Assembly (NCBI GenBank): GCA_022561415.1
Contig: JADFRH010000043.1
Location: 1 to 11,136, forward strand
Direction: 5' to 3'
Length of the DNA stretch: 11,136 nt
Source: Planctomycetota bacterium
Lineage (GTDB): Bacteria > Planctomycetota > Phycisphaerae > UBA1845
The notes beneath the pieces are model-generated. The model ran no database searches, was not told the DNA's origin, and saw nothing but the letters and a program-made list of their open reading frames with translations. A program made the translations under genes and the position numbers. Shown one piece after another: positions 8,959-11,136 of this stretch (its first letter is position 1; every line of letters begins with the position of its first letter).

Positions 8959-8990
8959 TTGACCTTCAAGGTGACTTTAAGGTGTAGAAT
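8959..8990 (+). promoter_or_regulatory. MerR-type promoter with dyad operator
   Basis: A -35 box TTGACC (8959-8964) and a -10 box TAGAAT (8985-8990) are separated by 20 bp, longer than the optimal 17. This is characteristic of promoters activated by MerR-family regulators, which untwist the spacer. Within the spacer lies the dyad ACCTTCAA (8962-8969), N6, TTTAAGGT (8976-8983), whose arms match at 7 of 8 positions and closely resemble ACCTT...AAGGT operators of MerR, ZntR and CueR. The promoter faces the merR-like gene, so the regulator most likely controls its own operon. Transcription would be expected to begin around 8997, almost at the first ATG. Confidence 0.9.
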
Positions 8991-8999
8991 AGGGATGAG

Positions 9000-9434
9000 A
9001 TGACGGCACAATCCACGACAGATCAGCTCATGACGATCGGCGAGGTGGCCCGGACGGCGGGCGTGGCCGCGCCCACGCTGCGTTACTACGAGCAGGAGGG
9101 CCTGCTCTCGCCGACCACGCGGAGCCGTGCAGGCTATCGCCTTTACGACGCCCAGGCCGTCGAGCAGTTGCGGTTCATTCGCTCCGCCCAGGCCGTGGGA
9201 TTCACCCTCGACGACATCCGCACGCTCGGCCGGCTCGATGGAGAGAGCGGCAAGACTTGCAGGGCGGGAGTGCGGCAACTGCTGGAGCAACGCCTGGCGG
9301 ACGTTTCCGAGAAGATGAAGGACTTGAAACGGGTTCAGAAAACTTTGGGGCAGGCCCTGGACCGTTGCCGACGCTCGAACGGCGAGTGCAAGGTGCTGAA
9401 GGAAATCCGCCCCGCGAGAAGAAAAAGGAGATGA
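9000..9434 (+). CDS. merR: MerR-family heavy-metal-responsive transcriptional regulator
   Basis: The 144-residue protein has the MerR winged helix-turn-helix: TIGEVARTAGVAAPTLRYYE at residues 12-31, then EGLLSP, GYRLYD and a long dimerisation helix (LADVSEKMKDLKRVQKTL). Potential metal ligands are C87, C123 and C130. A cysteine at the start of the dimer helix (C87) is typical of divalent-metal sensors such as MerR, ZntR and PbrR, whereas monovalent sensors have Ser there. The C-terminal pair is C-x6-C, shorter than in mercury MerR (C-x8-C) or CueR (C-x7-C). In context it probably senses Hg(II) or a similar soft metal and activates the operon. An alternative start at 9030 (M11) fits the family better and allows a 30-nt leader, because the promoter would leave ATG 9000 nearly leaderless. 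Its TGA stop overlaps an ATG of the next frame. Confidence 0.9.
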   Translation: MTAQSTTDQLMTIGEVARTAGVAAPTLRYYEQEGLLSPTTRSRAGYRLYDAQAVEQLRFIRSAQAVGFTLDDIRTLGRLDGESGKTCRAGVRQLLEQRLADVSEKMKDLKRVQKTLGQALDRCRRSNGECKVLKEIRPARRKRR

Positions 9435-9436
9435 CG

Positions 9437-9772
9437 ATGTCGAAACGATGGACGCTTTCTGCCCTGGCGCTGGCGATGCTTGGCGTCGCCGCGCTCGGTG
9501 CCGTGAAGCTGGCTGCCGGGCAAGCCGGTTATGCCGGCGCCAACTCGGAGCGAGCGGACTGCCCCGGAAAGATCGTCTGCCCGGAGACTGGCCGGCTGAT
9601 CTGCCGGGATCACTGTCCGACGATTGACCGGAACCGCTCGGATTGCCCGGGTCGAATCGTCTGCCCGATCACCGGGAAGCTCGTGTGCAAGGATCGGTGC
9701 CCACTCGATAACCAAGCCGCGAAGAACATGGATACGTACGCCAAGCCGTCGTGCTGCGGAAAGGGGAAGTGA
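9437..9772 (+). CDS. Small secreted cysteine-repeat protein, putative metal-binding
   Basis: No named family was recognised. From ATG 9437 the product is 111 residues: an N-terminal signal peptide or membrane anchor (residues ~5-30, TLSALALAMLGVAALGAV), then two copies of a cysteine module at residues 41-61 and 69-89, and a C-terminal CC at 106-107. Each module has spacing C-x5-C-x7-C-x3-C (C42, C48, C56, C60; C70, C76, C84, C88), with conserved blocks PG(K/R)IVCP and TG(R/K)L. The chain thus holds ten cysteines after the signal. An ATG at 9431 also lies in frame, but AAGGAG (9425-9430) touches it directly; 9437 gives a proper 6-nt spacer. Its position between merR and a MerC-like transporter suggests a periplasmic or envelope buffer or donor for Hg(II) or another soft metal; this is inference. 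Confidence 0.85.
   Translation: MSKRWTLSALALAMLGVAALGAVKLAAGQAGYAGANSERADCPGKIVCPETGRLICRDHCPTIDRNRSDCPGRIVCPITGKLVCKDRCPLDNQAAKNMDTYAKPSCCGKGK
9557..9703 (+). repeat. Tandem intragenic repeat encoding two Cys modules (84-nt period)
   Basis: Copy 1 spans 9557-9619 and copy 2 spans 9641-9703. Each encodes a 21-residue D-C-P-start module; 16 of the 21 residues are identical between copies, and several differences are conservative Lys/Arg or Ile/Val swaps. The DNA copies have diverged at many third positions, which suggests an old duplication kept by selection on the protein. Confidence 0.85.
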
Positions 9773-10257
9773 CGACCGGCGACGAAAAGGACGACTCCGC
9801 TGCGGACACCGCCGGGCGATCCCGCTCGGGGGTGCGGCCGAACCGGCCGGCTTGGCTTCAGACGCTCATCGCCGTTCCGGCGGCGGTGCTACCGCTGTTG
9901 CCGAGTTTCTCGTGCCCGGTGTGCGTTGCGGCCTACGCGGGCTTGCTCTCTTCGCTCGGTTTGGGCTTTCTTCTTACTGATCGCGTGCAGCGGCCTCTGA
10001 TCGTCGCGTTCCTGATCGTTTCAGTTGCCGGCGTGGGCTGGGCGGGGAGACAATACCAGAGCGTGGGCCCGTCCATACTTGTCCTTCTTGGCTCCGCGGC
10101 GATCATCGCGGGCCGCCTCGTATGGAGCGTAACGCCTGCGCTTTACGTCGGCGTAGTCTGCCTCGTGGCGGGCACCGTCTGGAATATGATACTGAAGCGG
10201 CCGCGACGGAATCTCGTTTCGCTGGGCGTCGTACAGAAATCGGAGTGCAATCAATGA
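9769..10257 (+). CDS. MerC-like membrane mercury transporter
   Basis: The start is GTG at 9769, overlapping the stop of the previous gene (GTGA) with GGAAAGGGGAA just upstream; an ATG-less extension to 9751 would overlap the neighbour further. The product is 162 residues: a polar N-terminal tail of about 28, then four to five membrane helices (about 30-48, 51-70, 77-95, 100-120, 123-143). A CPVC pair (C49-C52) sits in or at the end of the first helix, followed by VAAYAGLLSSLGLGFL, which resembles MerC proteins that carry Hg(II) across the inner membrane by thiol exchange. A last Cys lies at 160 near the C terminus. MerT or another small CxxC transporter is possible, but the helix count and motif favour MerC. 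It would receive mercury from the MerP-like protein encoded next. Confidence 0.7.
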   Translation: MTTGDEKDDSAADTAGRSRSGVRPNRPAWLQTLIAVPAAVLPLLPSFSCPVCVAAYAGLLSSLGLGFLLTDRVQRPLIVAFLIVSVAGVGWAGRQYQSVGPSILVLLGSAAIIAGRLVWSVTPALYVGVVCLVAGTVWNMILKRPRRNLVSLGVVQKSECNQ

Positions 10258-10616
10258 GGATTTACAAGATGTCGTTCGTCACGGCCATTGCGGCAGCTAC
10301 TCTCACACTGGGCTGTGCGACCGCGCAGAAAAGACCGACAGCGCCGGCCATCTCAATGCGCGGGACCGCCGATGCCGTCATTCACATCAGCGGCTTGTCG
10401 TGACCGTTCTGAGTGCACAACGTGCAGCGTTCGGTCGAACGCGTTGACGGTGTGAAGAAAGTTGAGATCGACCTGAACACGGGCCGAGGAACGGTAACCT
10501 TTGAACCGGGGAAGGCTGCGGCGCCTGCAGCCCTTTGGCAGGCGATCAAGGACAGCGGCTTTACTCCGGTTCGAGTTGAAATAAAAGGCAAGGTATATGA
10601 AGGCCCCGAGCAATAG
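10254..10616 (+). CDS. merP: MerP-like HMA-domain selenoprotein with two in-frame TGA (Sec) codons
   Basis: A single frame of 120 codons plus TAG runs from ATG 10254 (overlapping the previous TGA) to 10616, interrupted by TGA at 10401-10403 (codon 50) and 10410-10412 (codon 53). Residues 1-25 form a signal peptide, possibly a lipoprotein signal ending LTLGC. Residues about 43-110 match a heavy-metal-associated (HMA/MerP) domain: AVIHISGLS, the two TGA codons around PF, VHNVQ, VDGVKKVEIDLNTG, TVTFEP, ALWQAIKDSGFTPV. HMA domains have G-M-x-C-x-x-C at the metal site; here GLS-TGA-P-F-TGA puts both TGAs exactly at the two cysteines. Read as selenocysteine, the site is U50-P-F-U53, a selenol pair that should bind Hg(II) more tightly than thiols. 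It would act in the periplasm, handing metal to the MerC-like transporter. TGA is a normal stop in neighbouring genes. A double nonsense pseudogene is the main alternative, but the exact placement makes that unlikely. Confidence 0.88.
10413..10446 (+). promoter_or_regulatory. Putative bacterial SECIS element
   Basis: Just after the second TGA the mRNA can form GCGUUC (10427-10432), loop GGUC (10433-10436), GAACGC (10437-10442), a perfect 6-bp hairpin. A lower stem CAAC (10418-10421) with GUUG (10443-10446) can extend it, leaving a 5-nt bulge on the 5' side. An alternative small hairpin UGCAC-AAC-GUGCA (10414-10426) sits directly before it. Bacterial SECIS hairpins lie right behind the UGA, with G at the top of the loop; the E. 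coli fdhF loop has GGU. Here the loop GG starts 20 nt after the second UGA and 29 nt after the first, so one element could serve both. It lies inside the coding sequence, as in bacteria. Confidence 0.75.
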
Positions 10617-10641: not shown

Positions 10642-10818
10642 ATGAGATTCTCTCGTTCCAGAAAGTGGATTCACCTCGCGGCATCCGGTGCGCTTCTGTT
10701 CGGTCTGGGCGGCTGCTTGGGACCGAATCCGGGATTCTTCATCAGTTCGTCCGCGGCGAACGCCTCCATCTTCACGCTCGTAAACTCGTTTCTCACGAAC
10801 GCACTTGGCTTAGGATGA
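10642..10818 (+). CDS. Small lipoprotein of unknown function
   Basis: The 58-residue product starts at ATG 10642 with AGGAG 6 nt upstream; an in-frame ATG at 10597 would overlap the selenoprotein gene and has no comparable site. It begins with a basic stretch and a hydrophobic segment ending LFGLGGC, a good lipobox, so the mature protein is probably lipid-anchored at Cys21 and only about 38 residues long. The mature part (GPNPGFFISSS, then SIFTLVNSFLTNALGLG) is hydrophobic and helix-prone at its C terminus. No family was recognised with confidence. It lies between the MerP-like gene and an outer-membrane barrel gene, on the same strand, so it may assist that barrel or be an operon accessory; this is inference. 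Confidence 0.75.
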   Translation: MRFSRSRKWIHLAASGALLFGLGGCLGPNPGFFISSSAANASIFTLVNSFLTNALGLG

Positions 10819-10837: not shown

Positions 10838-11136
10838 ATGTGGAACCCGAGAAACACCGTCTTCGCGCTGGCGCTCGTCGTTGGTATCTGCACATCCGTC
10901 CCCGCTCTGGCCCAGATTAACACTGATGTGGCTCTCACCCCGCCCAAAGGCGGAAGCATCCTTCGCCTGCAATACAGCTATAGCGAAGCCGATGGGCGCG
11001 GTGCGATCGCGCACGTGAACGCTTCCGTTGTGAAGGCCACCTACATCTATGGGCTCAAGGAGAACTTCGCACTCTTCTTGACGGCACCTTATGTAAACCG
11101 GCAGGTGGACAAGTTTGCGCCACAACTCGGGCGGTT
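10838..11136 (+). CDS. Outer-membrane beta-barrel protein, Phenol_MetA_deg/transporter-like (3' end off window)
   Basis: Ninety-nine codons are visible from ATG 10838 before the window ends. A clear Sec signal peptide (hydrophobic FALALVVGICTSVPALA) is followed by a likely cleavage after ALA at residue 25. The mature start has short alternating beta strands typical of barrels: GGSILRLQYSYSEADGRG, NASVVKATYIYGLKENFALFLTAPYVNRQ. The pattern of a strand, a turn, then 'YGLKENFALFLTAPYV' resembles the Phenol_MetA_deg family of outer-membrane transporters. It begins 19 nt after the small lipoprotein and has no strong ribosome site. Placement at the end of a mer-type operon suggests either a route for metal across the outer membrane or an unrelated downstream gene; the full length is not visible. 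Confidence 0.72.
   Translation, partial: MWNPRNTVFALALVVGICTSVPALAQINTDVALTPPKGGSILRLQYSYSEADGRGAIAHVNASVVKATYIYGLKENFALFLTAPYVNRQVDKFAPQLGR

Follow-up and report, generated by a model that had tools for sequence, protein, structure and literature searches.

The window, i.e. the whole 11,136-nt stretch of DNA that was analysed, holds in this order the genes for a MerR-type regulator, a Cys-rich protein, a MerC-like protein, an HMA protein with two probable selenocysteines (Sec), a small lipoprotein and an outer-membrane barrel (Table 1). The promoter in front of merR, TTGACC followed by 20 bp and TA, precedes this gene also in three loci of relatives (L001, L002 and L003; L-numbers denote loci in the relatives' DNA and G-numbers the relatives' genomes). 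We take the 20-bp spacer as a sign of MerR control. The best solved relatives of the regulator are 4ua1, which we take to be a mercury MerR, CadR (6jgf) and the mercuric regulator 5crl, and its Cys residues align with theirs. None of the single-metal NCBIfam models is matched over its cut-off; the best of them is that of the zinc regulator ZntR. The Cys-rich protein gave no Pfam or NCBIfam match, and the MerC-like protein remains below the NCBIfam MerC cut-offs.

Table 1. Features of the putative metal operon (positions within the window).
Feature	Position	Strand	Basis
MerR-type promoter TTGACC, 20-bp spacer, TAGAAT	8959..8990	+	pattern search
MerR-family regulator, predicted divalent soft-metal sensor	9000..9434	+	Pfam MerR_1, E 7.1e-21
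Predicted exported Cys-rich protein, two similar DCPGxIVCPxTGxLxCxDxCP repeats	9431..9772	+	homologues at the same place in L001-L003
MerC-like membrane protein with CPVC motif	9769..10257	+	Pfam MerC PF03203, 34.4 bits vs cut-off 27.6
Putative double-selenocysteine HMA lipoprotein gene	10254..10616	+	120 aa, U50 and U53
Predicted signal peptide and lipobox ending at Cys21	10254..10316	+	[GA]C pair ahead of the metal motif
First in-frame UGA (UGA1, probable Sec50)	10401..10403	+	read-through translation, comparison with relatives
Second in-frame UGA (UGA2, probable Sec53)	10410..10412	+	read-through translation, comparison with relatives, hairpin
Predicted bSECIS hairpin GCGUUC-GGUC-GAACGC	10427..10442	+	published bSECIS limits, comparison with relatives
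Small predicted lipoprotein	10642..10818	+	HMA gene followed by a homologue in 11 of 21 scanned Sec-form loci
First part of outer-membrane beta-barrel gene, which runs past the window end	10838..11136	+	61% identity over 92 residues to the L002 barrel

When TGA is read through, the HMA gene yields one frame with in-frame TGA at codons 50 and 53 only, and with Cys substituted at both sites its product matches the Pfam HMA family (PF00403) with an E value of 2.4e-11 and 44.3 bits against a cut-off of 24.8. A sequence-only reading of this DNA had seen a single HMA frame with two TGAs at the CxxC sites, coupled to the upstream gene by ATGA, and this holds: the start of the gene and the stop of the MerC-like gene share four bases. 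The two cysteines it had called catalytic are, however, the metal ligands of an HMA domain. Standard ORF calling gives the 67-aa fragment from GTG 10413 which that reading expected, whereas the orphan of 49 residues that it also expected does not appear, the upstream half being contained in a 93-aa ORF (10122-10403).

The structure model reaches a pLDDT of about 96-98 over residues 41-110 and shows the order beta-alpha-beta-beta-alpha-beta. Near solved folds found with Foldseek are CopZ (6ff2), MerP (1osd and 1afi) and domains of copper ATPases, and profile matches agree for MerP. A [GA]C pair precedes the metal motif in all 23 Sec members and in 17 of the 18 Cys members examined. In the Sec sequences inspected this pair ends a hydrophobic stretch, which suggests that the protein is a lipoprotein and supports the export that had been proposed from a signal peptide. 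Tests by pattern are mixed, as 18 of the 23 Sec members match a PROSITE-like lipoprotein pattern and 10 a strict lipobox.

The 13 proteins found in a first protein search are 66-69 aa long, each a piece beginning past the second TGA. The profile search found 84 proteins at E <= 1e-10. Both searches together give 85 different proteins (homologous clusters, E <= 1e-10), 79 of which begin past site 2, and the remaining six, which span this site, are all CxxC. At the DNA level, planctomycete assemblies revealed CPFU in L001 and L002, UPFU in L003 and L004, and CPFC in L005, the very forms with Cys or TGA at codons 50 and 53 that the earlier reading had suggested looking for. Profile searches were then extended to 392 genomes from the phylum and 114 from the order. 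Once duplicates and matches below 35 bits had been removed from the loci fetched, the comparison comprised 59 motifs including that of the window; one L082 domain without the motif was dropped, and profile matches lacking a locus were considered only where fetched for the later check described below. Site 2 is UGA in 23 of these motifs and Cys in 36, the UxxC motif of L050 being grouped with the latter. Where site 2 is UGA, site 1 is UGA in 18 cases and Cys in five (L001, L002, L066, L039 and L047). An exchange of UGA and Cys is hence seen at both sites of the HMA motif. The middle residues vary in some members (UPGU, UPSU, UGNU, ULGU, UGGU, URGU), and genome G468 has two motifs in tandem. That such a pattern should arise by chance had been called improbable beforehand; with TGA or Cys at both sites in relatives and the great majority of protein clusters beginning past site 2, these comparisons indicate that two TGAs in an HMA frame are more than chance. 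A tree of 23 rows has three of its 20 inner branches well supported and is too weak for counting C-to-U switches at site 1. Among the viral contigs searched no relative was found, and the UGA-plus-hairpin pattern had no exact match there.

The review PMC13188914 gives as limits of a bSECIS element a loop of 3-9 nt, a stem of 4-16 bp with G in the first two loop positions, a distance of 16-37 nt from the UGA and an MFE of -7.5 kcal/mol or lower. In the window, a hairpin with the loop GGUC and 6 bp begins its loop 20 nt past UGA2 and 29 nt past UGA1. It lies within all four limits for both UGAs, its energy being -12.1 kcal/mol when computed from UGA2 to 10 nt beyond the hairpin; the bare hairpin alone has -7.2 kcal/mol. 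Computed over the same extent, all 23 Sec motifs reach -7.5 kcal/mol. The 65-nt local region is no more stable than its shuffles (z 0.26), and an Rfam search of the window gave no match.

The motifs were also compared at fixed distances. A hairpin whose stem has 5 or more bp and whose loop begins with G, located exactly 20 or 32 nt after UGA2 (two distances picked post hoc, after inspection), is present in all 23 motifs that have UGA at site 2, 18 times at 20 nt and five times at 32 nt, and in none of the 36 motifs with Cys at this site. From synonymous recoding one would expect such hairpins in 3.1 of 23 sequences of the Sec set and in 0.08 of 36 of the Cys set. The 18 members of the 20-nt group have stems of 5-7 bp and loops of 3-4 nt beginning in G. 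In 17 of them the loop is GGUC inside the codons TCG-GTC (Ser-Val), and 16 of these 17 encode R-S-V-E-R. L039 retains a 6-bp hairpin at 20 nt despite unrelated amino acids, and the five members of the 32-nt group, with an 8-bp stem, keep theirs with different amino acids, too. Paired changes occur in the stem, GCGUUC/GAACGC in the window vs GCGCUC/GAGCGC in L002 and L003. Four members of the 32-nt group are UxxU, and in these UGA1 is 41 nt from the hairpin and thus beyond the bSECIS range.

With a looser criterion, 6 bp or more at any distance of 14-37 nt, 19 of 23 Sec motifs are positive against 11 of 36 Cys motifs; here 6.5-57% of the recodings of a given Sec sequence contain a hairpin by recoding alone, that is, the coding sequence itself often permits hairpins of this kind. 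Among later-fetched members, three of seven Sec motifs and none of six Cys motifs have the hairpin at the fixed distances; with at least 6 bp at any 16-37 nt it is six of seven against one of six, and in all six positive Sec motifs it is placed at 31 or 32 nt. Two UxxC members were left out of the seven and six (L126, with a hairpin at 32 nt, and L125, without), and L109, L111, L115, L116, L117 and L123, which have no motif at the expected place, were not counted. A second group of UxxU and CxxU HMA proteins (L099-L103, L118-L122, L127) has its hairpin 31-32 nt past UGA2. At the fixed distances the hairpin accompanies UGA, not Cys, at site 2. The UGAs are at the Cys sites of an HMA domain and a bSECIS-like hairpin follows downstream; therefore both are likely to be selenocysteine. 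As a separate observation, L117 and L123 contain HMA-like frames reading U-x-x-x-U, in which the two TGAs are one residue further apart.

The genes for Sec synthesis and insertion, a search for which had also been proposed, are present in most of the relatives' genomes. Among the 21 relatives' genomes that carry the Sec form, SelA exceeds its cut-off in 19 and SelB in 18. Two of these 21, G004 and G459, show neither SelA nor SelB over cut-off, which may reflect incomplete draft assemblies. Of the first five genomes tested, G001-G005, four have a Sec form and G005 has CPFC. All five contain SelD over cut-off (L025-L029), each time with one in-frame TGA, and tRNA-Sec is over threshold in three, G002, G003 and G005. 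SelA is common in the order (93 of 114 genomes over cut-off) and therefore permits, rather than proves, the use of Sec in this family. Of 22 Cys-form genomes taken from the phylum, 7 have SelA over cut-off, a contrast which is partly one of lineage, because all eight Cys-form genomes inside the order are SelA-positive (G405, G416, G418, G434, G479, G481, G501, G506). Two further observations concern single genomes. The SelA frame of G468 (G468:C353:463-1812) has one in-frame TGA itself, in a genome without SelB over cut-off, and G005 (L005, CPFC) possesses SelB, SelD with TGA and tRNA-Sec and gave no SelA match at E 1e-20.

Conservation of flanking genes was examined for 24 loci with flanks, 21 of the Sec and three of the Cys form. 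The barrel gene is the sole tested neighbour present in all 24, on the same strand, downstream of the HMA gene in 19 loci and upstream in five of the 32-nt group (L099-L103). The Cys-form locus L005 has the barrel downstream as well (36% over 246 residues), which raises the count to 25 out of 25 loci. It occurs in none of 27 background loci, a set that, at 98 kb, is smaller than that of the HMA loci (24 loci, 289 kb) and was taken from five of the same genomes. Close full-length homologues of the barrel belong to PF13557 and carry database names such as 'transporter', 'hypothetical protein' or a phenol-degradation label; the distant barrels of L099, L104 and L106 gave no Pfam match. The model of the L002 barrel is all-beta with 13 strands listed; its fold is similar to those of FapF and the COG4313 channel 4rl8, with identities of 12-14%. 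A PDB sequence search with the barrel profile returned no hits. Other neighbours are less constant: MerC-like genes are found in 2 of the 24 loci (L001 and L002), MerR-like genes in 7, and same-strand CopZ-MerT-HMA fusion genes are nearby in 6 (L001, L002, L003, L092, L100 and L101), the domains of the fusion having been checked in L002. MerA is over cut-off in none of 22 relatives' genomes, with weaker matches in all 22.

The two TGAs could also mean that an ordinary HMA gene was broken by two nonsense changes, or that a separate 67-aa protein starts at GTG 10413. Gene callers give exactly this fragment and databases store such proteins; moreover, the part ahead of UGA1 is only loosely conserved between the window and L001 (of 49 codons, 15 differ synonymously and 25 non-synonymously), a looseness which may fit a signal peptide and linker. 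Past UGA2, however, 21 synonymous stand against 17 non-synonymous changes in 66 codons, and the P-F codons between the sites are the same in both sequences. UGA at site 2 with an open frame recurs in 21 genomes, and relatives' copies, checked for scattered stops and frameshifts, keep the frame. The codon following UGA2 differs among the members (GTG, GTC, GGC, GCC, GCG, ACC, ACG), therefore no conserved start exists there. As the hairpin, too, is linked to UGA and not to Cys, we reject both a pseudogene and an independent 67-aa gene, either of which would be most improbable. The exchange with Cys would fit equally a UGA that is read as Cys, or as another residue such as Trp, via a reassigned code or a suppressor tRNA. 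Against this, three upstream genes of the window end in TGA, Cys is written TGC or TGT elsewhere in the same operon, relatives have SelA and SelB and, in three of five genomes, tRNA-Sec, and the hairpin fits a SECIS element. A reassigned code is consequently rejected as well; we give it hardly any credence.

A different matter is whether real selenocysteines would serve a redox role here, with a diselenide/selenol pair that transfers electrons within the envelope instead of trapping a metal. By general chemistry an oxidising periplasm would favour the diselenide. The sequence and the fold, however, are those of an HMA domain, and a MerR/MerC operon in the window as well as the CopZ-MerT-HMA fusions near six of the related loci speak against electron transfer. 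PMC9312934 states that most prokaryotic selenoprotein families are believed to be redox-active, which lends the redox role some weight; we nevertheless consider it unlikely.

Taken as one gene whose UGAs are both read as selenocysteine, which the comparative evidence makes likely, the locus would encode a predicted exported, lipid-anchored U-P-F-U metal binder, and we hold this explanation, together with the mechanism proposed here, to be highly probable. It agrees with the double-Sec U-x-x-U site in an exported HMA protein that the sequence-only reading had put forward, now supported by the frame, the C/U exchange and the hairpin. A soft metal ion would activate the MerR-type regulator at the promoter with the 20-bp spacer. 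SelB with Sec-tRNA would bind the hairpin 20 nt past UGA2 and thereby serve both UGAs. The protein would be exported and anchored by a lipid at Cys21, and the two selenolates of its HMA domain, for which metal binding is predicted from fold and motif, would hold Hg(II), Cd(II) or Cu(I) tighter than thiols do. Judged by gene order, it may buffer or hand over periplasmic metal beside a COG4313-type outer-membrane channel and the MerC-like inner-membrane protein. Overall, this would be a metal-responsive operon making a lipid-anchored UxxU metal trap that works with an outer-membrane channel.

Selenolates bind Hg(II) very tightly. Because of this affinity, and because mercury and cadmium regulators are among the best solved matches of the regulator, our first guess for the metal is Hg(II) or Cd(II), although the best NCBIfam match of the regulator is a zinc model. 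The sequence-only reading had named mercury. This is plausible but is not accepted as proven, with MerA over cut-off in none of the 22 relatives' genomes and the regulator below every single-metal cut-off.

HMA selenoproteins with a UxxU motif are already known. NF041115 (UxxU_metal_bind) likewise has an HMA domain and two Sec in a UxxU motif, but the window protein scores 47.1 bits against its cut-off of 95, the 74-position model spans only residues 38-104, and the window protein has in addition a predicted signal peptide with lipobox and an outer-membrane barrel as neighbour. UxxU is also tabled, with 2 Sec, as 'putative mercuric reductase' in PMC13188914. NF045683 (MerT_CopZ_Se, MerT/CopZ fusion-like heavy metal transport selenoprotein) resembles the window protein as an HMA selenoprotein tied to a Mer-type membrane transporter; here, in contrast, HMA protein and membrane protein are encoded separately, and the former reaches 35.7 bits against a cut-off of 375. 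With MerP (TIGR02052; PDB 1afi, 1osd) it has in common a predicted export and an adjoining Mer-type membrane protein. However, it carries Sec for Cys, is a predicted lipoprotein and scores 41.6 bits against the TIGR02052 cut-off of 92.55, and unlike in a mer system with MerA this enzyme is not found over cut-off in the 22 genomes of relatives; the identification as MerP made from the sequence alone is therefore not upheld. A Sec-containing mercuric transport protein MerP from the Global Ocean Sampling data, given with 2 selenoprotein sequences, 1 sample and 0 Cys homologues in Table 2 of PMC2398784, can be compared by name only, since that table gives no motif. The partner barrel, finally, shares its fold with the COG4313 channel (4rl8) and FapF (5o67), but has the low identity given above and is paired with an HMA lipoprotein.

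New is thus, as far as sequence comparison goes, the exported, barrel-linked form below the cut-offs of NF041115 and NF045683; predicted export, the barrel partner and a motif fixed by the hairpin set the window protein apart. A limited literature search, covering its sources in part, found no description of such a protein. The earlier reading did not contain the SECIS hairpin, the barrel partner in the outer membrane or the NCBI families that already exist for UxxU HMA selenoproteins.

The best-known role of selenium is in catalysis. In this protein of 120 residues, Sec would take the place of both ligands in a small domain for metal binding, and selenolates acting purely as metal ligands would therefore become directly testable. 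The natural CPFC, CPFU and UPFU forms provide a ready series for the effect of each selenium. The constant presence of the barrel partner in all loci tested points to a metal-handling pair. Since ordinary annotation cuts the members into fragments, as in the 79 of 85 clusters, the spread of the family is hidden. We tentatively suggest, without giving it an even chance, that the Planctomycetota have an unrecognised outer-membrane system for soft metals consisting of a lipid-anchored HMA protein and a dedicated COG4313-type channel, in which CxxC was repeatedly upgraded to CxxU and UxxU, selenium would be the metal-gripping element and the SECIS hairpin would have fixed R-S-V-E-R.

Another HMA-type frame with two TGAs, of the signature S-G-A-x-U-x-x-U, was noticed in L001:12421-12900 (+), L003:11402-11880 (+) and L051 (- strand, near 1218). 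The protein from L001 (P0087) matches Pfam HMA with 39 bits (cut-off 24.8) and is below NF041115. These frames sit in the same metal islands as the Sec-HMA gene.
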